Positions 49,043-61,990 of a stretch of 64,000 bases of DNA are shown here, in pieces; positions within the stretch are counted from its first letter, which is position 1, and each line of letters starts with the position of its first letter. The position numbers and the translations under genes were made by a program. Location: contig NZ_JAFKCU010000006.1 in the NCBI RefSeq assembly GCF_017254845.1, positions 124,001-188,000 on the forward strand. Reading direction: 5' to 3'. The notes beneath the pieces were generated by a model. It did no database searches. It saw only the letters and a list, made by a program, of their open reading frames with translations, and was not told the DNA's origin. The DNA comes from Algoriphagus pacificus. Its GTDB lineage: Bacteria > Bacteroidota > Bacteroidia > Cytophagales > Cyclobacteriaceae.

Positions 49043-49948
49043 TTACTCCTCCCCTTCTGAATCAATTCCTAGTATGTAATTAGCTGCCTGGTGTGCCTTT
49101 TGGGCAGCGTAGATCAGCATCTTTGGATCTTCCTGTAGTGGCTTAAACCATCCTTTTAGGTAAGCCAGGGAATTTTTAAAGTTGGCATCTTTGATTCCAG
49201 CATAGGCATTTAGGAAACTAGCTCCCATTTCTGCAATCAATTCTTCTTTCGAATATTCAACAGAGCCGAAACCAACCAATGCAGGTCTTTCTGAAAATCT
49301 ACCCAAACGGGTACTATGGCCAGTTGAGTGCAACATTTCATGAAAAAGTACAGAATAGTACTGTTCGTCTCCTTTAAATGATTCCTTGCTAGGCATATTG
49401 ATATAATCAGTTGAGGGGCTGTAAAATGCTTCATGGCCATAGTGAACAATTTTTGGGCAATCTGAATATCCATTAATAATCTGCTCACAAGTTTCAATTG
49501 GCTTAAAAACTCTTTCCACTGTTTCATTTATGGCAAATTCGATTCCTTCAATTTGGCCGATGTTGAAAACTGTCCAGATAAATGGAGTAAATTTTCTTCC
49601 GAAAAGGTCCTCATCTTCTCCGGCTTCATTTTTTGTTTGACCTTTGACGAATTTGGAGATCTTCCAGAATACCACTTTAGTCCCTTTTTGACCTTTTTTG
49701 ATATTTCCGCCTAGCTGTTTCGCTTGTTTGAAAGTCAGGAAGTAAGGATGGTCAAATTTTTTTGAAATTGTCACCCAAGCTAACCAAAGCGCATTGAACC
49801 CTAAATAAGGGCGATTTGAAGCATAGTTTTTAGGGGCATTTTTCGGATTCCAAACTTGTTCCCAAGTGAGATTTTCATTTTGGATTCCTTCGATGATTTC
49901 ATTGGTTACGGTTTCCGCTAGTTTGTTGAAGTTTTCCCAAGCTGTCAT
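49043..49948 (-). CDS. ArdC-like antirestriction protein with zincin metallopeptidase domain
   Basis: 301 residues from the ATG at 49948. The N-terminal ssDNA-binding ArdC domain (about 1-140; LTWEQVWNPKNAPKNYASNRPYLGFNALWLA, KKGQKGTKVVFWK) is followed by a zincin domain with HEMLH (203-207) and a probable third ligand Glu in EELIAEMGA (235-243). ArdC proteins enter recipients with conjugative DNA and protect it against restriction. This one marks the region as plasmid/ICE-derived. A longer frame to 50272 lacks conservation and would span the conserved hairpin at 50199. It is in the same orientation as radC and the 73-aa gene. Confidence 0.85.
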   Translation of the reverse strand: MTAWENFNKLAETVTNEIIEGIQNENLTWEQVWNPKNAPKNYASNRPYLGFNALWLAWVTISKKFDHPYFLTFKQAKQLGGNIKKGQKGTKVVFWKISKFVKGQTKNEAGEDEDLFGRKFTPFIWTVFNIGQIEGIEFAINETVERVFKPIETCEQIINGYSDCPKIVHYGHEAFYSPSTDYINMPSKESFKGDEQYYSVLFHEMLHSTGHSTRLGRFSERPALVGFGSVEYSKEELIAEMGASFLNAYAGIKDANFKNSLAYLKGWFKPLQEDPKMLIYAAQKAHQAANYILGIDSEGEE

Positions 49949-50198
49949 TTTGATAATAATTTTAGGGTTGAAAAAGAGCCAACTAGTACCAAAGTATCCC
50001 CCATCATATCCAAGGATGTAAGGAACATCGACCCGACAAATCCAGAGCTTTTCCCTGGAGTGAGGGGAGCTTGGTTTTTCTGGCAGAGTGGGGATATTTG
50101 GCTGAGTAGTGACATTTTTTTTATCCACTGGTGTTGAGGTACCGACCGACAAGCGTTTTCTGGAAACCCTGAAGCTGGATAAGACAAAAACCTGAAGA

Positions 50199-50235
50199 AA
50201 AATGTCGGAGGTAGTCCGTAGGAGACCGCCATTTT
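50199..50235. repeat. Conserved island hairpin, copy 1
   Basis: Stem AAAATG-T-CGG / CCG-C-CATTTT (6 bp, one mismatch, 3 bp) encloses a 17-nt loop AGGTAGTCCGTAGGAGA. The same architecture with compensatory stem changes recurs at 61626-61662. It lies about 250 bp upstream of the ArdC-like gene, which reads on minus. Confidence 0.75.
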
Positions 50236-50392
50236 GCGGAAGGAAGAAGCGGATTTTTGACGATTCCAGCATCAGGGTTTCACCTTTGCTTGGTTGGACG
50301 GTCTAACACCTGTTAAAACTGGAACGGATCAGACAAGCCACTCGGAAGAAAAACGCTCCCTGACGAAAGGAACAGAAAAGCGAAAAACGGCT

Positions 50393-50418
50393 TGCCCCCC
50401 TAAAGGAGGATTGGGGCA
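50393..50418. repeat. GC-rich hairpin
   Basis: TGCCCC pairs with GGGGCA, and an inner CCT/AGG continues the stem. No T-run follows. It resembles the C-rich/G-rich interspersed stem-loops common in Bacteroidota intergenic DNA. Confidence 0.4.
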
Positions 50419-50598
50419 CTTATTCGAGAAGCGGGTTTCTATTGTTCTAGTCTCGACGGAACAAGGAAAGTAAAGCGGATTGAATGTGTGGCCGTGTGGA
50501 GCTGAAAGCTATTTGACTGCAACGAAAGAATGGAGAGAAAGGAAAATTGCTGAAAGTGGAGATTCCGGCACCGGGCCACTGTTGAACTGAATGACCGC

Positions 50599-50625
50599 CC
50601 CATTCCCAGACTTGTTGGGAATGGG
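50599..50625. repeat. 10-bp perfect hairpin
   Basis: CCCATTCCCA (50599-50608) pairs with TGGGAATGGG (50616-50625) across a 7-nt loop. It is not followed by Ts on either strand, so it is not a typical terminator. Confidence 0.5.
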
Positions 50626-50807
50626 TTAAGGGAAGTGGAATAAAACTGTTGCCGTGGGGAATAGTTAATCTCTCCAGGAATAAAGCGCAGCAAGCAGTCA
50701 TTTAGAAAATGGCGCGCATAAAGCGGAATAAATGGAGTGGTTTATATGGGGAAAATGGCTTAAGGATAGTAGCGATAAGCCTTTCTTAGGAAGTTCAAAA
50801 AGGAAGC

Positions 50808-51560: not shown

Positions 51561-54329
51561 ATGAACATAGCCCAGATTGAGTCAAACCTTCAAAATCTGA
51601 TCAAGTCCTTTTCCAAAGAAACTTTCATTTACGATTTGCTCTTGGTGTATGGCCTGCCAAAAGCTTCCATCACAAGATTGCAAAAAGGAAACCTTAACCT
51701 ATCCAAATCAGAAGGGGAGATTTCCTGGAAAAAGAAACTTCGATTCCAAGAAGAGTATTCAGCCGACTTGCATCTAACTATTTCTGAGCTGGCCCAATCC
51801 ATCAAGCATGAAGAGCGATTTGTAATCGTGACTGACTATGTGCTTTTCTTGGCAATTGACACCAAAACGGGTGAAAAACTGGACATAGAAATCCAGGATT
51901 TGCCGAAGCATTTTGATTTCTTTCTGCCTTGGGCTGGGATGGAAAAAGCCCAACACCGAAATGAAAACCCCGCTGATGTCAAGGCCGCGGAACGGATGGC
52001 AAAGCTTTTTGACGAGATCAAAAAAGACAATCCGGTCAAATCAGAGGAAGATTCTCATGCCCTTAACGTCTTTTTGACTAGACTTCTTTTTTGCTTTTTT
52101 GCTGAAGACACTCACATTTTTCAGGATGGGCAATTTACGAATGCGATCAGCTCTCACACTGCGGTAGATGGCAATGATCTTCGTCCCTATCTGGAGAGTT
52201 TATTTGAAGTGTTGAATACCGCATCAAAAGACCGAAAAGATCTACCGGCTTATTTAAACGCCTTCCCCTATGTCAATGGAGGCTTATTTAAGGATTCTTT
52301 CCAGGCACCTGAGTTTAACCGAAAATCTAGACAGCTGATTATCGACGCAGGGGAGATGAACTGGAAGGATATCAATCCGGATATTTTCGGGTCAATGTTC
52401 CAAGGAGTCATCGATCCTGAAAAAAGAGGAAGTCTTGGCGCACATTACACCTCTGTACCCAATATCATGAAAGTGATTGAGCCTCTCTTTCTGGATGAAT
52501 TCAAGGATGAGTTTGAAAAAGCAAAACATAATCCCAAAAAGCTCAATGAACTGCTCTACCGTCTGAGTAAAATCAAAATCTTCGATCCGGCCTGTGGCAG
52601 TGGCAACTTCCTGATCATTGCCTACAAGGAACTCCGAAAACTGGAAATAGCGATTATCCATCACCTTCAGGACTTGCAAAAAGCTGCGGCTGGATTTAAC
52701 AGTAAAAGCGAACAACTTTCCTTTATCCCTAAGGCACAACTTAGCCTTGCTGCATCTTTTCAAGTTGAGTTGTTTTCGAGAATACAACTTAGTCAGTTTT
52801 TCGGGATAGAGATCGATGACTTCGCTCATGAGATCGCACAACTATCGCTCTGGCTGGCGGAGCATCAGATGAATGTGGAATTCCATCGTGAATTCGGAAA
52901 GACAAGTCCTACCCTCCCACTCAAGGAAGCTGGAAAGATTGTCTGCGGCAATGCCTGTAGGCTGGACTGGGAGGAAGTCTGTCCGAAGAAGGAAGGAGAT
53001 GAAATTTATATATTGGGAAATCCTCCATACTTGGGAGCAAGAAATCAATCACTCTTACAAAAAAAGGATTTGGAGGATGTTTTTAGTAGCGCCTCGGGAA
53101 CAAATAGTCTAGATTATATTTCGGCTTGGTTTATAAAAGCAGCAATATATAACGACAAGAATAATTCCCATGCTGCATTTGTTTCCACTAATTCAATAAT
53201 TCAAGGTGAACAAGCTGGAATATTATGGCCTCAAATACTTGCTGTTAACAATCAAATATTCTTTGCTCACACCTCTTTTCTTTGGAATAATAGTGCTAAA
53301 AATCAGGCAGCGGTATACGTAGTAATTATTGGTATTGGAAAAGCATCAGTTAAAAAGAAAAAAATCTTTCTGGGTGATAATGTAAAGATGGTAGAAAACA
53401 TTTCACCCTATTTGACAGAAGGATCTAATACAATCGTCGGCAAAAGATCAAAACCAAGAAATGGTCTGCCTTCATTAGTTTTTGGCAATCAGGGGATAGA
53501 TGGGGGACACTTGATTTTATCTAATGAGGAACGAAAGTCCCTATTGAATAAAAATCCAGAATTAGAAAAATTCATCAGACCGTTATTTGGAGCAGAAGAC
53601 TACATGAAAAATGAAAACAGATGGTGTATTTGGATAAATGAAAGGGATAAAGATGAAGCGCTGGCCTTTCCTGAAATTCAGAAAAGAGTAAAAAGTGTGG
53701 AAAATTATAGAAAAGGAGGTGGACAAGTAGCTAGATCGCTAGTCAATTTGTCTTATAGATTTCGATACATTCATGAGGCAAAAAGATCTACTCTTATTTT
53801 ACCTAGAACGACAACTGAAAGAAGAGACTATTTAGTAGTAGGTTTTTTGGACAAGAAAAATATTGTAACGGATGCTGCTCAAGTAATTTATGACCCAGAG
53901 CCATTTGTATTTGGATTGTTATCATCAAAAATTCATATGATCTGGGTCAAGGCAACCGCAGGAAGGTTAAAAATGGACATTAGATATTCAAATTCTATTT
54001 GTTACAATAATTTCCCCTTTCCTCCAATCTCGGACCAACGAAAGCAGGAAATCACCCAATGTGTCTTCCGTATTCTTGAGGAGCGAGAGCGTCACTCAGA
54101 GAAGACTCTAGCACAGCTGTACGACCCGGACAAAATGCCAGAAGGCTTAAGGGAAGCCCATCGGCAGAATGACCTAGCCATTGAGCGCTGCTACCGCAGT
54201 CGGCCGTTTGAATCCGACGAGGAACGTCTGGAATATCTATTCAAATTGTATGAGAAAATGATCGCAGAAGAGAAAGTAAAGGACAGTCTATTTGAAAAAG
54301 AGAAAAAGGGAAGGAAGGTAAAAAAATGA
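51561..54329 (+). CDS. MmeI-like class I SAM-dependent DNA methyltransferase
   Basis: 922 residues with the architecture of type IIL (MmeI-like) enzymes: an N-terminal region (1-160, with VTDYVLFLAIDTKTGEKLDIE), a helical spacer (about 165-330), an adenine-methyltransferase core with motif I DPACGSGNFL (342-351) and motif IV NPPY (487-490), a target-recognition region (about 620-820) and a C-terminal helical tail. I cannot find the D-xn-(D/E)-x-K nuclease motif of true MmeI at the N terminus, so it probably only methylates adenine. Cutting would come from another gene, the GIY-YIG protein being the obvious candidate. It overlaps the next gene by 4 bp. Confidence 0.88.
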   Translation: MNIAQIESNLQNLIKSFSKETFIYDLLLVYGLPKASITRLQKGNLNLSKSEGEISWKKKLRFQEEYSADLHLTISELAQSIKHEERFVIVTDYVLFLAIDTKTGEKLDIEIQDLPKHFDFFLPWAGMEKAQHRNENPADVKAAERMAKLFDEIKKDNPVKSEEDSHALNVFLTRLLFCFFAEDTHIFQDGQFTNAISSHTAVDGNDLRPYLESLFEVLNTASKDRKDLPAYLNAFPYVNGGLFKDSFQAPEFNRKSRQLIIDAGEMNWKDINPDIFGSMFQGVIDPEKRGSLGAHYTSVPNIMKVIEPLFLDEFKDEFEKAKHNPKKLNELLYRLSKIKIFDPACGSGNFLIIAYKELRKLEIAIIHHLQDLQKAAAGFNSKSEQLSFIPKAQLSLAASFQVELFSRIQLSQFFGIEIDDFAHEIAQLSLWLAEHQMNVEFHREFGKTSPTLPLKEAGKIVCGNACRLDWEEVCPKKEGDEIYILGNPPYLGARNQSLLQKKDLEDVFSSASGTNSLDYISAWFIKAAIYNDKNNSHAAFVSTNSIIQGEQAGILWPQILAVNNQIFFAHTSFLWNNSAKNQAAVYVVIIGIGKASVKKKKIFLGDNVKMVENISPYLTEGSNTIVGKRSKPRNGLPSLVFGNQGIDGGHLILSNEERKSLLNKNPELEKFIRPLFGAEDYMKNENRWCIWINERDKDEALAFPEIQKRVKSVENYRKGGGQVARSLVNLSYRFRYIHEAKRSTLILPRTTTERRDYLVVGFLDKKNIVTDAAQVIYDPEPFVFGLLSSKIHMIWVKATAGRLKMDIRYSNSICYNNFPFPPISDQRKQEITQCVFRILEERERHSEKTLAQLYDPDKMPEGLREAHRQNDLAIERCYRSRPFESDEERLEYLFKLYEKMIAEEKVKDSLFEKEKKGRKVKK

Positions 54330-54625
54330 TGGAAAGTCTACTAAGACAGTTTTTGGCCCAAGATACTGAAACGGAAATTTTGGAATTTAAAGTGGCAAAA
54401 ACCCAATACGATAAAGACAAATTGGGCAAATACTTTTCAGCCCTAAGCAATGAGGCCAACCTTAAAAACAGGCCTAATGCTTGGTTTATTCTAGGAGTAA
54501 ATGATAAAAAGCAAGTGGTGGGCACTGAAATCTCGGACAAGCAAATCAACGAGTACAAAAAAGAAGTGTCAGACCATACCTCACCAAATATGACATTCCG
54601 AGAGATTCACAAGGTGGAAATCTAA
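54326..54625 (+). CDS. AlbA_2 (Schlafen-like) N-terminal fragment
   Basis: 99 residues: ETEILEFKVA, LGKYFSALSNEANL and AWFILGVNDKKQVVGT form most of an AlbA_2 domain, which in relatives binds nucleic acid or has a Schlafen-like nuclease-related fold. The last strand of the domain lies beyond the TAA, so this fragment alone is probably not stable. Confidence 0.6.
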   Translation: MMESLLRQFLAQDTETEILEFKVAKTQYDKDKLGKYFSALSNEANLKNRPNAWFILGVNDKKQVVGTEISDKQINEYKKEVSDHTSPNMTFREIHKVEI

Positions 54626-54637
54626 GGAAAAAAGGTT

Positions 54638-55981
54638 TTGTTATGTGAGATACCTGCTGCAGCTAAAGGCATACCCGTTTCTTGGAAACGGCAATATTAT
54701 GGTCGAGATGGCGAAAGTCTTGGAGTCTTGAGTCTTGATGAAATAGATAGGATCCGAGAGCAATCAAATGCTTTTGATTGGAGTGCCCAGATAATAGACG
54801 GTGCTACCCTGAATGATTTATCACCGGAAGCAATCGCTGTTGCGAAACAAAAATTTGCAGAGAAGAATACTCACATTCACGAAGAGGTTTTAAAATGGGA
54901 TACCTGCACTTTCTTGAACAAGGCCAAGATCACTATTCAGGGTAAAATCACAAATGCTGCAATTCTACTATTGGGGAAACCAGAATCAGAGCATTTCATC
55001 AGTCCTGCAACGGCAAAGATTTCTTGGATTTTGAAAGATAAAGATGGTTTGGAAAAAGACTATCAGCACTTCACCTGCCCTTTGATCCTTTCTGTCCAGT
55101 CGGTTTTTTCAAAAATCCGGAATCTCAATTACAGGTATTTGCAGGAAGGTAGCATTTTCCCGGAAGAAGTCAGCCAGTTTGACCCCTACATCATAAGAGA
55201 AGCATTAAATAACTGCGTGGCTCATCAAGATTATACTTTAGGCGGGAAAATCAATGTAGTGGAGAGAGAAGATGGCGTTTTGACTTTTTCCAACTCCGGT
55301 AGCTTTATTCCTGGAACAGTCGAAAAGGTAATTGACTCCGATGCCCCAGAGACCAAGTATCGCAATCCCTTTTTAGCAAATGCAATGGTGGACCTGAAGA
55401 TGATTGATACAATCGGCAGTGGGATTCGGAAAATGTTTATCATTCAAAAAAGCAAATTCTTCCCCTTACCCGACTATGATTTCTCTGACAATAAGGTTTC
55501 TGTCAAGATTACCGGGAAAGTGATGGATATTAATTACGCCCGGAAACTGGCACAGATGCCGGAGCTATCTCTTCATGATATCATGCTTTTGGACAAAGTT
55601 TCAAAAGGTAAAAAATTGACGAATCCGGATATTCAGCTATTGAAAAAAAGGGGCTTGATTGAAGGCAGAAAACCCAATTTTCATATTTCCGCCATAGTTG
55701 CTAGGCGATCTAATCAAAAAGCAGATTACATCAAACTGAAAGGAATTGATGATCAATATGCAATGGAATTGATTCGGGAATATTTGAACAAATTTAAAAC
55801 TGCCTCTAGGGGAGAATTTGAGGAGTTTCTTTTGGAAAAACTTGGAGATAGATTTTCTGAGGATCAGAAAAAACATAAAATCAAAAACCTCCTCCAAAAA
55901 ATGAAAAAACAGGGAGAAATTAGATTGAATAAAGATCGAAGATGGGAACATGATCCAAGCTATGAGTATGGCGGGATTTAA
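54638..55981 (+). CDS. HATPase_c_4-type C-terminal part
   Basis: 447 residues if translation restarts at the TTG at 54638. It contains the end of AlbA_2 (IPAAAKGIPVSWKRQYYGRDG), then an ATPase of the GHKL-like HATPase_c_4 family with REALNNCVAHQDY (N box) and SNSGSF (G1-like), then RNPFLANAM and a C-terminal winged-helix pair with LLQKMKKQGEIRLNKDRRW. A restart this close to a stop would be inefficient without a visible ribosome site. Relatives are often annotated as RecG-like ATP-binding transcriptional regulators. Confidence 0.6.
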   Translation: MLCEIPAAAKGIPVSWKRQYYGRDGESLGVLSLDEIDRIREQSNAFDWSAQIIDGATLNDLSPEAIAVAKQKFAEKNTHIHEEVLKWDTCTFLNKAKITIQGKITNAAILLLGKPESEHFISPATAKISWILKDKDGLEKDYQHFTCPLILSVQSVFSKIRNLNYRYLQEGSIFPEEVSQFDPYIIREALNNCVAHQDYTLGGKINVVEREDGVLTFSNSGSFIPGTVEKVIDSDAPETKYRNPFLANAMVDLKMIDTIGSGIRKMFIIQKSKFFPLPDYDFSDNKVSVKITGKVMDINYARKLAQMPELSLHDIMLLDKVSKGKKLTNPDIQLLKKRGLIEGRKPNFHISAIVARRSNQKADYIKLKGIDDQYAMELIREYLNKFKTASRGEFEEFLLEKLGDRFSEDQKKHKIKNLLQKMKKQGEIRLNKDRRWEHDPSYEYGGI

Positions 55982-56002
55982 AGCTTTCTAGACCACAGGA
56001 GA

Positions 56003-56104
56003 TTTAGACGAGTTTAGACGGGATTTAGACGAAATTTAGACGAGAATAACGCGCATCATTCTGATTATCATTGTTTTAACAAAACCAAAGATTGGATTTA
56101 GACG
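56003..56104 (+). repeat. TTTAGACG iteron array upstream of the small winged-helix gene
   Basis: TTTAGACG occurs at 56003, 56013, 56024 and 56035 (spacing 10, 11, 11 bp, one helical turn) and again at 56097, ending 7 bp before the ATG at 56111. Most copies are followed by A or G. Face-aligned repeats of this kind are binding sites for an oligomerising DNA-binding protein. Confidence 0.85.
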
Positions 56105-56110
56105 AAAAAA

Positions 56111-56614
56111 ATGGCAACAGTTCAAACAAAAGTTTTAAGTGAGATCAAAGAGTCTAGAATGATTTCAACTACCAAGAGTACTCCAGATGAAGAGGTTGCA
56201 GTACTTCAAAAGTTGGAAGCCTTTGGGGTACTTCAGAAAGAAAACCATTCATTTAGACCCACAGCACGCTTCTATAAGTATGCTGATCAATTAATTGAGC
56301 AAGAAATTCCAGTAGAGAAGTTTGCCTTTGATGATCTACCAAGTTCCCAACAAACCTTCAATAATACAATTCATGCTCAAAGCATTGGACAAATAAATCA
56401 AGGCTCTGGAAATTTCAGTTTTGAACAGATTAACATTGAAATAGTGAAAGAATCATTGAAAAATGAGTTGAGTGAAGATCAAATGGACGAGGTCATGCAG
56501 GCACTAAAAGAAAAGGGGAAAAGTGGTGTTTTTCAAAAGTTGAAAAGCTTTGGAAGTGACGTACTTGCGAATGTAATCGCTGGAATTCTTTCTAATCCGG
56601 GACTCTATGGATAA
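56111..56614 (+). CDS. Small protein with putative winged-helix N terminus
   Basis: 167 residues. The first 65 (VLSEIKESRMIS, EEVAVLQKLEAFGVLQKENHSFRPTARF) read like a winged helix-turn-helix with a wing. A polar Asn/Gln/Gly linker (about 82-102, NNTIHAQSIGQINQGSGN) leads to a helical region (EIVKESLKNELSEDQMDEVMQAL) and a short hydrophobic C-terminal segment, DVLANVIAGILSNPG. I know no named family. The gene is flanked on both sides by TTTAGACG repeats, so an autoregulatory controller is a reasonable guess; the hydrophobic tail also recalls small effector proteins of defence systems. Confidence 0.65.
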   Translation: MATVQTKVLSEIKESRMISTTKSTPDEEVAVLQKLEAFGVLQKENHSFRPTARFYKYADQLIEQEIPVEKFAFDDLPSSQQTFNNTIHAQSIGQINQGSGNFSFEQINIEIVKESLKNELSEDQMDEVMQALKEKGKSGVFQKLKSFGSDVLANVIAGILSNPGLYG

Positions 56615-56662
56615 GAGAAAATCTAACTGGCTAAAAAGAAATAAAATATAAATAAATTATTT

Positions 56663-56702
56663 AAAAAGTGCTTTAGAACTCATTCAAGCCACTTTTTCTC
56701 TT
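56663..56702 (+). terminator. Intrinsic terminator after the winged-helix gene
   Basis: AAAAAGTG-CTT pairs with AAG-C-CACTTTTT (one bulge, 12-nt loop) and is followed by a T/C-rich tract. Confidence 0.65.
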
Positions 56703-56825
56703 TTTGCTGTAAAAACAAATAAAAATAAAGTAAGAGAATAAGGCTGATGTTTAGCAAGTGATGGCATTAAATTCTTATAGAATGGTTAGGTGACAGAAGT
56801 CAGAATATCGAAAAGTAGAAAAACT

Positions 56826-56947
56826 CGTCTAATTCAATATTTAGTTTATTAGGTTAGACGAACTTTAGACGAGAAAACACCTAATATTTTTGATAAACAG
56901 CGACTTAAAAAATTAAACTTAGACGGATTTTAGATATACTTTAGACC
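56826..56947. repeat. Second TTTAGACG cluster, upstream of the helicase gene
   Basis: An inverted copy CGTCTAA lies at 56826-56832. Direct copies lie at 56854 (TTAGACG), 56864 (TTTAGACG) and 56919 (TTAGACG), with a near copy TTTAGACC at 56940. The 56854/56864 pair again lies about one turn apart. The last copy ends 16 bp before the helicase ATG, so bound protein would block or guide that promoter. Confidence 0.75.
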
Positions 56948-56962
56948 ATTAACCTTTTTGAA

Positions 56963-58891
56963 ATGCCCAATATAGTAGAAGTAAATTATCACCAGACTGG
57001 CAAAAGTACCCAAACTAACCCTATGGGAATGCGCGATATGCAAGCCCGGGCATATGAGGCTAGACACGCCCAATATTTATTGCTTAAAGCCCCACCTGCA
57101 TCCGGGAAATCCAGGGCATTGATGTTTTTGGGACTTGATAAACTTTTCTACCAAGGCATCAAAAAAGTGATTGTCGCTGTACCGGAACGCTCTATTGGGA
57201 GTTCCTTTGCCCACACCGATCTAAAATCCCATGGATTTTTTGCAGACTGGGAGCCAAACGATGCCTATAATCTGTGCATGCCCGGAAGTGATGGGAGCAT
57301 GAGTAAAGTCAAGGCTTTTCACAATTTCATGGCAAACGAAGAGAAGCTTTTGATCTGTACCCATGCCACACTGAGATTTGCATCAGAAGAATTGGAAGAA
57401 AAAGTATTTGACAATTGCCTCCTTGCTATAGATGAATTTCACCATGTTTCCGCGGATATCAATAATCGTCTGGGTGATATCCTTCGGAATATCATGCAAA
57501 AGTCTTCGGCGCACATTATTGCGATGACCGGCTCCTATTTCCGGGGTGATAGCGTGCCGGTACTTCCTCCGGAAGACGAAGCCAAGTTTGAAAAAGTCAC
57601 CTACAACTATTACGAACAGCTGAACGGATATAATTACCTGAAATCCCTAGGAATTGGCTACCACTTTTATCAGGGCAGATACACAGAAGCCATTTTGGAA
57701 GTATTGGATACGGACAAGAAGACGATTCTTCATATCCCAAATGTGAACTCAGGTGAATCCACTAAGGACAAACACAATGAAGTAGACTTTATTCTGGATG
57801 CGATCGGAGAAGTTATCAAGCAAGACACTGAAACTGGTGTGATCTATATCAAACGGCACTCAGATGGCAAAATCCTGAAAGTTGCTGACTTGGTAGAGGA
57901 TAATTCCAGAGAGCGGGATAAAATCGTAGAATACCTGAGGAAAAGCAAAGACGAGGAGGATATGGATTTGATCATTGCTTTGGGTATGGCTAAAGAAGGA
58001 TTTGATTGGCCTTATTGCGAACATGCCCTGACTGTTGGTTACCGTGGATCCTTGACTGAAATTATCCAGATTATTGGCCGATGCACACGTGACAGTAGCA
58101 ATAAAACACATGCACAGTTTACTAATTTAATTGCCCAGCCAGATGCTGCGGATGATCAGGTAAAATTATCCGTCAACAATATGCTGAAAGCTATTACAGC
58201 TTCTCTACTGATGGAGCAGGTCTTGGCTCCCAACTGGAAATTTAAAACCAAACTATCCGATGAGGATAAGGCAAAGCCAGGCGAACTCAAAATACGTGGA
58301 CTGAAAGAACCAAGCTCCAAAAGAGTAAAAGACATTATTGAATCGGACCTAAATGACCTGAAGGCGGTAATTCTTCAGGATGATCAAATGCTCAAGGCTA
58401 TGCCAGGGAATGTAGATCCAGAGGTAATCAATAAAGTTCTAATCCCGAAGATCATTCAAGTGAGATACCCTGACCTCTCGGCCGATGAAGTAGAAGAAGT
58501 TCGCCAGCAAGTAGTGGTCGATTCTGTGATTAAAAACGGTGAAGTCAAAGAAACTGGGGACAAACGCTTTATCCGAATGGCCAATACATTTGTGAATATT
58601 GATGACCTTCATATCGACCTGATTGATCAGGTTAATCCTTTTCAGAAAGCTTTTGAGATCTTGTCAAAATCTGTGACCACCAAAGTTCTAAAAGTGATAC
58701 AGGAAACTATAGAAGCAACTCGAATTTCAATCAGTGAGGAAGAGGTTTTACTTCTATACCCAAAAATCAAGGAATTTATAACCATGTATGGCAAAAAGCC
58801 AAACATCAATTCCGGAGATCCATTGGAAAGAAGAATGGCTGAGGCGATCATTTACATCAATGAACAAAGAAGGAAGCATGCAGCATCGTAA
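56963..58891 (+). CDS. DEAD/DEAH-type superfamily 2 helicase
   Basis: 642 residues. SF2 motifs in order: Q-like GMRDMQARAYEAR, Walker A APPASGKSR (43-51), motif II DEFH (157-160), motif III MTGSY (188-192), motif V GMAKEGFDWP (341-350) and motif VI QIIGRCTR (369-376). A C-terminal region of about 230 helical residues has no recognised domain. DEFH in place of DEAH is an uncommon variant. SF2 motors of this kind translocate on DNA in restriction systems and would supply the motor for the adjacent nuclease, whose gene overlaps its end. Confidence 0.87.
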   Translation: MPNIVEVNYHQTGKSTQTNPMGMRDMQARAYEARHAQYLLLKAPPASGKSRALMFLGLDKLFYQGIKKVIVAVPERSIGSSFAHTDLKSHGFFADWEPNDAYNLCMPGSDGSMSKVKAFHNFMANEEKLLICTHATLRFASEELEEKVFDNCLLAIDEFHHVSADINNRLGDILRNIMQKSSAHIIAMTGSYFRGDSVPVLPPEDEAKFEKVTYNYYEQLNGYNYLKSLGIGYHFYQGRYTEAILEVLDTDKKTILHIPNVNSGESTKDKHNEVDFILDAIGEVIKQDTETGVIYIKRHSDGKILKVADLVEDNSRERDKIVEYLRKSKDEEDMDLIIALGMAKEGFDWPYCEHALTVGYRGSLTEIIQIIGRCTRDSSNKTHAQFTNLIAQPDAADDQVKLSVNNMLKAITASLLMEQVLAPNWKFKTKLSDEDKAKPGELKIRGLKEPSSKRVKDIIESDLNDLKAVILQDDQMLKAMPGNVDPEVINKVLIPKIIQVRYPDLSADEVEEVRQQVVVDSVIKNGEVKETGDKRFIRMANTFVNIDDLHIDLIDQVNPFQKAFEILSKSVTTKVLKVIQETIEATRISISEEEVLLLYPKIKEFITMYGKKPNINSGDPLERRMAEAIIYINEQRRKHAAS

Positions 58892-60125
58892 AAAGTATTC
58901 TTCTTTGGATGAAATTTTTAATGATGAGGAGTTTCATCTGATTGAAGAGAAAAAGAAAGTTTCGTCAACTAGTACTCCTGATGACCGATTACTTGCATCA
59001 TTTCACCAGATCAATGACTTTTTTGCAAAAAATGGAAAAGCCCCAGAAGCGAATATCTCCAATGTATCTGAATACCAGCTTTACTCACGGTTGAAAAGTA
59101 TTCGTGAGGATGCTTCTAAAGTCGAAATGCTGCTTCCTGAAGATATCCACGGCCTGCTGCAAAAGAAAGATACTTTTTCGGTAGAAGAACCGAGTGGGCA
59201 ATATCATAAGAAGCCGAAAAAAGAAATAAAGTCCATCGCTGACATATTGGATGATGATTTGGACATTTTGGGAGACGATGCCGGACTTTTTGATTTCAAA
59301 CATACTCCAAAACCAGAAGAACGGGCAAGTGCCGATTTTGTAGCCAAAAGAAAACCATGCAAAGATTTCGCTACCTATGAACCGCTTTTCAAAGAAGTGC
59401 AAAAGGATTTGGCAGAGGGCAAGAGGAAACTGATAGATTTTAAAGTGGATAATTTGAAAGAGGGTGCCTTTTATGTACATAATGGAGTTCTGTTTCTATT
59501 GGAGCATGTAAACATTTCACAAAAAGAGCATTACAGAGAGGATGGCACCAGAGTCCGTGAAGATGGAAGGACAAGGTGTATTTTTGAAAATGGCACCCAA
59601 TCCAATATGCTCAAACGGTCTGTCGAAAAAATTCTTTATGCCAATGGGAAGGTAGTCACTGAGAATTTTGAAAAATTAAACCAGTCATTCCAGGAAAACT
59701 TTGGGATGATTACCGAAGAAGACAAAGAATCAGGCTTTATCTACGTGCTGAAATCTCTGAGTTCCAATCCAGAGATCGCATCAATAGACAACCTATTTAA
59801 GATCGGCTATTCAAAAATCGCGGTTGAAGACCGGATCAAAAATGCATCAAAAGAACCAACCTATCTAATGGCGGATGTGGAATACATCGCCGGATGGAAA
59901 TGCTATAATATGAACACCCAGAAATTCGAACAGCTGATCCATAATTTCTTTGGTTCTTCCTGTCTGAACATTGACGTATTTGATGATAAAGGAAAAAGAT
60001 ATACTCCTAGAGAATGGTTTATTGCCCCTTACGAAGTGATCGAACAGGTCATTGGTTTAATTATCAGTGGTGAGGTGGTGAAGTATCGGTATGATGCGGA
60101 GGAGGAGAGGATTATCTTGAAATAA
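58878..60125 (+). CDS. T5orf172/GIY-YIG-type nuclease
   Basis: 415 residues from the ATG at 58878, which follows AGGAAG; it overlaps the helicase gene by 14 bp. The ATG at 58860 is an alternative. The N-terminal 280 residues are mostly charged, include an acidic stretch (ILDDDLDILGDDAG) and a beta region (EGAFYVHNGVLFLLEHV). The C-terminal domain (about 285-390) is a GIY-YIG nuclease of the T5orf172 type: FIYV (287-290) for GIY, KIGYS (308-312) for YIG, catalytic Arg319 and Glu351. It is the only clear nuclease in the cargo and is probably targeted by its N-terminal region or by the helicase. Confidence 0.82.
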   Translation: MQHRKKYSSLDEIFNDEEFHLIEEKKKVSSTSTPDDRLLASFHQINDFFAKNGKAPEANISNVSEYQLYSRLKSIREDASKVEMLLPEDIHGLLQKKDTFSVEEPSGQYHKKPKKEIKSIADILDDDLDILGDDAGLFDFKHTPKPEERASADFVAKRKPCKDFATYEPLFKEVQKDLAEGKRKLIDFKVDNLKEGAFYVHNGVLFLLEHVNISQKEHYREDGTRVREDGRTRCIFENGTQSNMLKRSVEKILYANGKVVTENFEKLNQSFQENFGMITEEDKESGFIYVLKSLSSNPEIASIDNLFKIGYSKIAVEDRIKNASKEPTYLMADVEYIAGWKCYNMNTQKFEQLIHNFFGSSCLNIDVFDDKGKRYTPREWFIAPYEVIEQVIGLIISGEVVKYRYDAEEERIILK

Positions 60126-60138
60126 AGGCTTATAAGTT

Positions 60139-60747
60139 ATGCTTTATAAAACTAGTGACCGACTAGCTGAAAAACTGCTTACACTTCCAGAGTCAGGTAT
60201 GGGATATCAGATAATAAAAACAAAATCATTCACGGGGTCTAAACAATATATCTTTTTTAATGGCATCGTTGGCAGCGATTTTGGATACCCTGGTAGTTTC
60301 AGCAACTATGAATTAAAGGCCATTGATTTTGATATTGATATTTCTAATCTTGTCATAGATAAAACAAGAGGAGCTATTGACTCTTCATTTGAGACAACAA
60401 ATGGTTCTGAAATTCAGAAATTCGTCAGGTTGTCTGCATTCGAAAATGATTTTCGTGTTGATACAGAAAGCGGTAGATTGTTACCGGGGAGTTTTACAAC
60501 TGATCTTGAAGATTTTTTAACAATGACAATTCCTTTCAATAATTTTGACCCGATAGCTTATTACAGCTTACCCAACCCTTTACCAATTAAGTGGCTATTC
60601 TACTTTAAATCAATCGCCGGTGATACTTTTCAAAGAGGAACTGTTCAGCCGGCATTTGGACAAAATGGAGGTGGAAGAGAATACTATTTTAAAAATGGCA
60701 CTTCTGAAAAATCCTTGATTTCAGTAAATCCATTTGGTTACTCTTAA
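60139..60747 (+). CDS. Unknown protein with a TNT-like C-terminal motif
   Basis: 202 residues, no signal peptide. Most of it is unrecognised (GYQIIKTKSFTGSKQYIFF, then strands to about 110). The C-terminal 60 residues contain GTVQPAFGQNGGGREYYF (FGQNGGG at 173-179). This resembles the A-P-x-F-G-Q-P-G-G-G-x-Q-Y motif of the TNT (tuberculosis necrotizing toxin, NAD glycohydrolase) family, preceded by a possible SGRLLPGSF counterpart of its earlier motif. The match is by eye and the catalytic set is not confirmed. It lies 13 bp after the nuclease gene and 3 bp before the membrane protein gene, so it is in the defence operon. Confidence 0.6.
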   Translation: MLYKTSDRLAEKLLTLPESGMGYQIIKTKSFTGSKQYIFFNGIVGSDFGYPGSFSNYELKAIDFDIDISNLVIDKTRGAIDSSFETTNGSEIQKFVRLSAFENDFRVDTESGRLLPGSFTTDLEDFLTMTIPFNNFDPIAYYSLPNPLPIKWLFYFKSIAGDTFQRGTVQPAFGQNGGGREYYFKNGTSEKSLISVNPFGYS

Positions 60748-60750
60748 ACT

Positions 60751-61173
60751 ATGGAACAAATAATTAGTACTTTGACAAATCCTGAAGATCCTAATTTCTG
60801 GACAGCGTTAGGTGTTGTAGTTACCGCCTTGGTAGCTTTAGGTGGATTATTGGGTTGGGTTTTGACTAACATCCTCAATAATAGGGTTTCTAAAACATCA
60901 AAGATCCTCATTCAGGCAATGATTGAGATTTTTCTCGATTGGGTGAAAGTAAAAAGTAAAAGTCAGACTGTTGATGATGAAAATATAAGAATATGGATTT
61001 CAGAAACAGGCGGTGCCATTTTAACAGGTCGATCTTACATGGTTTTTAAAAGATTCTTAAAAGAGCTCAAAAAGTCAGCCTACAAAGATTTACTGACTCC
61101 TGATGAAAACACTTATAAATCGTGGGTAAGCAAAAGTGATTCCAAGCCGACCTGGGAACGAATTGATTGGTAA
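60751..61173 (+). CDS. One-TM protein of unknown function in the defence operon
   Basis: 140 residues. One strong N-terminal transmembrane helix (about 18-41, ALGVVVTALVALGGLLGWVL) is followed by a basic soluble domain with a helix ILIQAMIEIFLDWVKVKSK and a Trp-rich end (YKSWVSK, TWERIDW). I recognise no family. Its gene starts 3 bp after the TNT-like gene. A membrane anchor, an effector or a neutralising partner for its neighbour are possible, but nothing visible decides. Confidence 0.6.
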   Translation: MEQIISTLTNPEDPNFWTALGVVVTALVALGGLLGWVLTNILNNRVSKTSKILIQAMIEIFLDWVKVKSKSQTVDDENIRIWISETGGAILTGRSYMVFKRFLKELKKSAYKDLLTPDENTYKSWVSKSDSKPTWERIDW

Positions 61174-61330: not shown

Positions 61331-61552
61331 TCAAGACTCTTCCGATTCCGGCTCTTTGACTGAAACATACACCGTGTGAGTTTTGCCGTATTGGTCTGGT
61401 TCTTTCAGTTTGGCGACGTTGAACTTGACGTAGGTTTCTCCTTCGTATTCGAAGCTGTGGTTTTGAAGTTCAGCCATGTTGAGGCTTACTTCGACGATGT
61501 CCATGTTTTCGACTTGTTTGCCTTTTCCGATGTACTTTTTTGAAAATGCCAT
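61331..61552 (-). CDS. Conserved small protein of Bacteroidota mobile elements
   Basis: 73 residues: MAFSKKYIGKGKQVEN, then strands with VEVSLNMAELQNHSFEYEG, YVKFNVAKLKEPDQYGKTHTVYVSV and an acidic end. Small proteins with this KKY-GKGKQV start and a K-E-P-D-x-Y-G-x-T-H-T-V core recur in Bacteroidota plasmids and integrative elements, as far as I recognise them; no function is known. It is in the same orientation as radC and the ArdC-like gene and has the second copy of the conserved hairpin about 75 bp upstream. Confidence 0.75.
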   Translation of the reverse strand: MAFSKKYIGKGKQVENMDIVEVSLNMAELQNHSFEYEGETYVKFNVAKLKEPDQYGKTHTVYVSVKEPESEES

Positions 61553-61990
61553 AGATTTTTGGTTTTAGTTAAAATTTATGCATGTCTTTTAGGAAGGCTT
61601 GGTGAGTGGATAAAAATTAGAATTCAAAAACTGGGAGGTAGTCCGTAGGAAACCCCGTTTTTATAAGATATTCTGCTAGCAGCCCCAATTTTTAGAAACT
61701 GACAAGCGGACTGACCTTTGTGCATACAATTGAACAAAACCGGAATTTGGCATATAAATTCATAACGAATCAGTTGAAAGAAATGTACGAGCCATTATGG
61801 AATCTACTTGAAGAAATAATAGAGATTTCAAAAACCATTCATATTAAATACAAAAGCCCCTCATAAGCAAAGAACTGATCTTGAATCCTTTGGTTTAACC
61901 TTAGGATTTATCCTTAAAAAAGCTGGAAATTTTCATAAAAAAAGAAATACTAACAATTTCAAAAATCTCATATTTTTAGACAAAAAGAAA
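61553..61990. other. Intergenic region with conserved hairpin
   Basis: About 440 bp between the 73-aa gene (minus) and a plus-strand gene. It holds the second island hairpin (61626-61662). The rest is AT-rich, without a credible ORF or clear promoter. Confidence 0.5.
61626..61662. repeat. Conserved island hairpin, copy 2
   Basis: Stem AAAAAC-T-GGG / CCC-C-GTTTTT (6 bp, the same single mismatch, 3 bp) encloses the 17-nt loop AGGTAGTCCGTAGGAAA, one base different from copy 1 at 50199-50235. Three stem positions differ from copy 1, each with its partner changed to keep pairing. Confidence 0.75.

Follow-up and report, generated by a model that had tools for sequence, protein, structure and literature searches.

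A conserved imperfect hairpin before the ArdC-like and p73 genes of Algoriphagus conjugative elements, a possible single-strand promoter

Introduction

Two hairpins of one plan, lying in the same orientation on either side of a defence cargo in the genome of Algoriphagus pacificus (Bacteroidota), raise the question of what such a structure does and in which form of the DNA or RNA it is read. They lie in a window of 64,000 nucleotides, the whole stretch that was analysed (NZ_JAFKCU010000006.1, positions 124,001 to 188,000 of the forward strand), where a preliminary description made from the letters alone had suggested either a structured RNA leader or single-stranded DNA hairpins recognised by a relaxase, HUH enzyme or recombinase. 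Single-strand promoters have been described as helping incoming plasmids to protect themselves ahead of second-strand synthesis. In F, Frpo1 and Frpo2 are stem-loops about 5 kb apart that rebuild -35/-10 boxes, and they are needed for early downstream expression in recipients and become inactive after duplex formation (PMC9849209). The word stem 'Bacteroid' is absent from the main text of a large survey of single-strand promoters, and the literature searched, as judged by titles, gave no paper on single-strand promoters in Bacteroidota or Algoriphagus.

A hairpin pair in the window and its relatives

Copy 1 (50199..50235, + strand) reads AAAATG-T-CGG-(17 nt)-CCG-C-CATTTT and copy 2 (61626..61662, + strand) reads AAAAAC-T-GGG-(17 nt)-CCC-C-GTTTTT. 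Each has 6 bp, a T-C mismatch, 3 bp and a 17-nt loop; the loops are a single base apart, and stem positions 5, 6 and 8 have changed together with their partners, all of which can be read in the sequence as the preliminary description had reported. The 21-nt tip core, searched with R allowed at one place and up to 3 mismatches, is present at just two places in the window, as compared with 0.00 times on average in 100 shuffles. A 16-nt core (up to 2 mismatches) occurs at three places in the host genome, which are the two tips at full match and one place with 2 mismatches. RNA folds of 56-nt pieces around both tips were no better than those of shuffles (z -1.04 to -0.03, four folds), and since the window pair taken alone is this weak, the case rests on its relatives.

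The covariance-model search that had been proposed for this pair, made with a model of 20 distinct tips, gave 57 matches in 22 of 73 genomes of the genus under strict filters, many of these genomes being incomplete; 54 of the matches have E values of 1.2e-5 or lower and three lie between 0.002 and 0.006. When sorted by their flanks, 26 matches belong to class 1 (the ArdC side), 23 to class 2 (the p73 side) and 8 to neither, so that 49 class-consistent copies remain after leaving out five with neither flank, two with the class-2 right flank only and one chimera; counts over 47 copies also leave out two class-1 copies whose right flank is unclear. An ArdC gene follows class 1 in 26/26 copies (blastp identified it for 25, in one case as two pieces, and Pfam for the window's own copy, whose ORF reads on upstream), and p73 follows class 2 in 23/23. 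There are 21 ArdC-p73 hairpin pairs, spaced 5,315 to 30,147 bases apart, in which the ArdC hairpin always comes first along the + strand; pairing required equal strand, while ArdC-first order was no precondition. In each of 26 contigs, all class-consistent copies lie on one strand.

An 18-nt core (1 mismatch) was found in 8 of 295 family genomes, namely in seven of the 17 tested members of the genus, one of them the source of the window, and in one member of another genus (G255). The exact 21-nt core was found at 31 loci in 84,980 species genomes, all of them titled Algoriphagus. The gene is present at 29 of 31 loci (14 ArdC, 15 p73), and at the other two (L048, L052), which have too little flank, the small ORF and p73 start were seen on inspection of the ATG codons. 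The tip model, run with strict filters on 295 class genomes, gave besides G000 and G158 only a weak match in G334 (E 0.003), and the viral contigs searched for the tip core gave 0 matches. At three loci (L151, L152, L153) the tip has neither a class-1 nor a class-2 left flank, and two of them (L152 and L153, in G697) have the class-2 right half and, 66 nt from the tip, a different sort of small ORF on the minus strand; these three may represent a third gene class or decayed copies.

The tip as the apex of a longer fold

The 37-nt hairpin is only the apex of an imperfect hairpin of ~160 nt, and the idea that it forms the entire unit was dropped because folding extends to this length. In class 1 the extended hairpin spans 50141..50302 (+ strand, minimum-energy DNA fold) and consists of base, mid and A-tract stems below the tip, and in class 2 it spans 61573..61731 (+ strand, minimum-energy DNA fold and class-2 consensus fold). 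It is kept in conjugative elements of this genus. Of the 14 copies first examined, most fold as 170-nt DNA into a long imperfect hairpin, ten of them with a small side hairpin, and consensus folds made from 17 sequences of each class have a similar plan. For 150-nt pieces, z was -4.20 for window copy 1 (0/200 shuffles as good), -5.20 for the locus L054 and -4.13 for the class-2 locus L060, and some single copies fold weakly on their own (window copy 2, -1.43; G255, -0.48; L059, -1.56).

The relatives bear out the proposal that selection has acted on a fold with a sequence-specific loop. Further copies exist, and in the 20 distinct tips 98.9% of the 180 cells of the 9 tip pairs hold a standard pair. 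Tip cells changed on both sides number 13, as against 3.2 in shuffles (0/500 as high), and only 3 tip pairs contribute such double changes, which is not above shuffles (143/500 as high). The class-1 structure (17 sequences) has 45 pairs, with 97.5% of 761 cells paired; double changes are seen at 13 of its pairs, as against 9.1 in shuffles (1/500 as high), and in 49 cells, as against 14.2 (0/500 as high), where these controls take no account of relatedness, and relatives can outdo shuffled sequences even with no structure at all. Sliding one class-1 arm along the other lowers pairing to 38-51%, a comparison in which a structure derived from the same alignment, as the folds here were, beats its own slid versions anyway. 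The class-2 structure has 53 pairs with a double change at one, and class 2 is conserved yet too uniform for covariation to tell, so that its fold is hardly tested by this means. A joint MAFFT alignment of both classes misaligns the outer stems and was left out of the pair counts.

The 1x1 mismatch of the tip is itself retained, being T-T in 37 of the 49 copies, T-C in 7, C-T in 3, C-A in one and G-T in one, so that a non-pair is kept in 48/49 copies. The + strand is the better folder in 15/17 class-1 and 15/17 class-2 copies (30/34 together). In folds limited to Watson-Crick pairs, the columns with wobble pairs favour the + strand in class 1 (6 vs 2) and do not in class 2 (1 vs 2). Class-2 conservation stands at 0.78-1.0 across the hairpin and ~20 nt past its base, and then falls to 0.44-0.56, with no conserved sequence right of the class-2 hairpin; class 1 is conserved for another ~400 nt rightwards. 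A noncoding, GC-richer block lies right of copy 1 at 50370-50770, and its right ~220 bp recur in the same orientation inside the cargo of several related elements. A search of Rfam gave no family match, the single hit being a miRNA at chance level that lay elsewhere than the tip, in agreement with the initial impression that this is no named RNA family.

Genes that follow the hairpins

Both copies lie in the same orientation and 5' of minus-strand backbone genes, as had been noted at the outset. On the side of copy 1 this is an ArdC-like antirestriction gene (49043..49948, minus strand) whose product has the Pfam domains ArdcN and MPTase-PolyVal, the latter a zincin-like metallopeptidase (1.8e-26, 3.9e-31). 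Between it and the hairpin is a small ORF of 56 aa (49945..50115, minus strand), which begins at the first ATG past the stem base, 26 nt off, and whose stop overlaps the ArdC start. The class-1 copies examined have an ORF starting at this position too, 56-64 aa in length. Differences by codon position over 90 related pairs (363/235/438) hint at weak coding constraint on this ORF. On the side of copy 2 the gene is p73 (61331..61552, minus strand), which encodes a protein of 73 aa and begins 21 nt away from the stem base. The hairpin sits 83-84 nt before p73 in 15/15 loci, and measured from a reference point set 50 nt leftwards of the core, the first ATG is 33-34 nt away in class 2 and 42-45 nt away in class 1.

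The p73 protein had no match in Pfam, NCBIfam or PDB, and none in plasmids; of 395 genomes searched, 4 from other genera gave distant matches, two of which contain an internal stop. Its predicted fold (mean pLDDT 55, pTM 0.36) is too poor to compare.

A general rule by which ArdC genes of Bacteroidia are preceded by a hairpin was considered and found no support. A search of 295 genomes gave 30 ArdC loci, from which 29 upstream and 29 downstream stretches were scored and then reduced to 26 + 26 when the three that belong to this element were left out; folds with a z of -4 or lower, counted as strong, were no commoner upstream than downstream (6/26 each, Mann-Whitney p 0.16). The same genome carries another, distant ArdC (L104, G000 contig C23), which does have a strong upstream hairpin (z about -4.9), with no TTTG-N15-22-NAnnTTTG match within its 440-nt upstream stretch.

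Promoter-like boxes in the 3' arm

The housekeeping promoter consensus of Bacteroidota has been described as a -33 TTTG and a -7 TAnnTTTG box (PMC7366714, PMC2483708), and similar boxes stand on the + strand in the 3' arm of the hairpin as TTTG-N17/20/21-NACCTTTG. In copy 1 the -33-like box TTTG, recognised by the consensus of PMC7366714, is at 50256..50259 and the -7-like box CACCTTTG at 50281..50288, with 6/8 of its columns unpaired in the class-1 consensus fold. In copy 2 the -33-like box reads TTAG (61692..61695), where 20/23 class-2 copies have TTTG, and the -7-like box GACCTTTG is at 61713..61720, with GACC paired and TTTG looped out in the class-2 consensus fold. The likeness to Bacteroidota housekeeping promoters thus covers both boxes, with the differences that the first T of the -7 box TAnnTTTG is missing in 49/49 copies and that the boxes face off the genes unless the strand is folded. 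In duplex DNA they aim away from ArdC and p73, and could fire rightwards, whereas in the folded strand they aim towards ArdC and p73.

These boxes match 9/10 consensus letters in 46/49 copies and 8/10 in the other 3, with spacers of 17 (23 copies, class 2), 20 (18 copies) and 21 (8 copies). Among 68-nt stretches of the window, 4.6% reach 9 and 27.8% reach 8, and for single copies p against shuffles ranges from 0.007 to 0.37; because the copies are related, their conservation amounts to two or three observations and not to 49. A coding-strand site of 9/10 was found between tip and gene in 0/47 copies and 50-300 nt left of the core in 0/26 class-1 copies, and right of the tip in 9/47 copies, at varied places and about chance level. 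As such low counts are near chance at a 4.6% base rate, they rule out only a strong conserved coding-strand promoter. Sites of 8/10 lie on the coding strand between tip and gene in 19/23 class-2 and 4/26 class-1 copies, so that an ordinary duplex promoter may serve p73 as well or instead; these class-2 sites lower our confidence in a single-strand promoter and raise that in duplex regulation.

The element and the transferred strand

The hairpins bracket a defence cargo, as the preliminary description had it. The cargo (51561..61173, + strand) is variable, with hairpin spacings of 5.3 to 30.1 kb among elements, and in the window includes a type IIG restriction-methylation enzyme (51561-54329, PADLOC 2.3e-303). 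Beyond the window, on the minus strand, are genes for a coupling protein (Pfam T4SS-DNA_transf; NCBIfam MobC below cut-off), TraM, a TraG-type ATPase and a PF03432 relaxase that is MOBP-like by NCBIfam matches below cut-off, all sharing the strand of ArdC and p73.

Which strand is transferred matters here because a similar idea for pLS20 was abandoned for two reasons, of which the transferred strand was the weightier (PMC8708921). Relaxase genes are described as typically lagging (PMC11541004), and with the relaxase gene on the strand of ArdC and p73 we infer that the + strand is the one transferred, so that it should template both genes. In a test for a leading region, the relaxase and the tra order fit, and the oriT is a candidate by inverted repeat only. 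This inverted repeat, with 17-nt perfect arms and 46 nt in total, is found ~77 nt before the mob operon, 5' of a small gene (ribbon-helix-helix by eye) and the relaxase gene, at L018:18327-18372 (window-equivalent 81327-81372), and is similar in three elements. On the assembled contig stretch, the last 14 nt of tRNA-Ser, looked at as a mark of integration, had no repeat, and neither a nick site nor the ends of the element were found.

A proposed single-strand promoter

The reading that we favour, and which we hold to be somewhat better than even, is an Frpo-like single-stranded DNA promoter that would give early ArdC and p73 from incoming DNA. The transferred + strand, on entering the recipient, would fold into the ~160-nt imperfect hairpin, whose 3' arm would offer the -33 TTTG and a partly open -7 NACCTTTG to the Bacteroidota housekeeping RNA polymerase, with the A-tract stems placed between boxes and tip. 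Transcription would begin near the stem base and head into the 5' flank, giving short leaders to the small ORF-ArdC operon at copy 1 and to p73 at copy 2. Anti-restriction functions would in this way be made ahead of the second strand, and the promoter would disappear once the DNA is double-stranded. Of the options first put forward, that of a single-stranded DNA hairpin has held up in its direction, with RNA polymerase as a likelier reader than a relaxase or HUH enzyme.

The likeness to Frpo and ssi (Frpo1/Frpo2 of F, and ColIb-P9) is that of a noncoding stem-loop on one strand that rebuilds host sigma boxes (PMC9849209, PMC11541004, PMC8708921), stands 5' of establishment or anti-restriction genes in uniform orientation, and is found in two copies some kb apart. 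Boxes of the host sigma factor do appear in the stem and face the genes when it is folded, as a match of sequence only, the E. coli boxes not being expected in this host. The window hairpins differ from Frpo and ssi in having Bacteroidota -33/-7 boxes where those have -35/-10, in their conserved 17-nt loop with a kept mismatch, and in belonging to a conjugative element with a PF03432 relaxase on a chromosome-type contig. Copy 1 (50100-50330) showed no sequence similarity to known Frpo or ssi by blastn against 72,556 plasmid records, and for lack of such a match the hairpins are proposed to work like Frpo and not as its homologue.

Single-strand hairpins read by RNA polymerase are also known as the sso of rolling-circle plasmids and ICEs. 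As sso are generally described, the window hairpins differ from them in being tied to the start codons of two genes.

Alternative explanations

The other option of the preliminary description, a structured RNA leader in which a minus-strand hairpin in the 5' UTR of ArdC and p73 controls translation or termination, is now less favoured and we regard it as unlikely, if the foremost of the alternatives. The copies do lie 5' of genes on the minus strand, and paired changes suit RNA as well as DNA; such a leader would nevertheless leave the best-kept boxes, which are on the other strand, unexplained, and it finds no conserved coding-strand promoter right of the tip, where the scattered 9/10 sites are, no class-2 conservation beyond ~20 nt past the stem base, a minus strand that is the poorer folder in 30/34 copies, and no family in Rfam. 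Regulation in duplex DNA, by which ordinary promoters drive p73 and ArdC while the palindrome is an operator or the 3'-arm boxes promote a rightward RNA, seems quite unlikely as well. The 8/10 coding-strand sites of class 2, the rightward reading of the boxes in duplex DNA and the ~400 nt of further conservation right of class 1 would all suit it, but the coding-strand site is rare in class 1, class 2 has no conserved sequence rightwards, and an operator has no need for paired changes across a ~160-nt fold.

A folded + strand that serves only as an origin, recruiting polymerase or primase for the complementary strand without being a promoter of ArdC or p73, has the identical structural requirement, and Frpo is described, in the title of a work in the reference list of PMC11541004, as serving both transcription and primer synthesis; we consider this improbable, as an origin needs neither the fixed placement before p73 nor that just before the small ORF, and most elements carry two copies. 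The least probable of these explanations is that the 37-nt tip is a recombination site at which cargo modules are exchanged or excised. The range of copy spacings fits such a site, as do half copies in G158 and G227 that start at or in the tip and a scar in G723 at which a class-1 left half and a class-2 right half are joined at the tip; yet this is one scar of its sort among 57 matches, the remaining half copies seen start elsewhere, and gene placement, long stem and boxes would be left unexplained. A homologous deletion across a pair of similar promoters, of the kind considered for Frpo1/2 (PMC9849209), suffices to account for the scar. The G723 remnant (~430 bp, L168 4786-5216 in reverse complement coordinates), with its ArdC-side and p73-side halves and only a 12-aa ArdC match left beside it, is what such a deletion would leave.

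Implications

A broader reading, which we put forward tentatively and think rather doubtful as a whole, is that these hairpins form a lineage-specific class of single-strand promoters built on Bacteroidota sigma boxes, with a sequence-specific apical loop that may be read by a protein of the element or the host, and present twice so that an exchangeable slot for defence genes lies between two early operons, in which case p73 and the small ORF might be new establishment or anti-defence proteins. A Bacteroidota version of the single-strand promoter, if true, would mean that this strategy adapts to a different sigma factor. It would also name two protein candidates, p73 and the small ORF, and would help to find anti-defence genes of the leading region in such elements.
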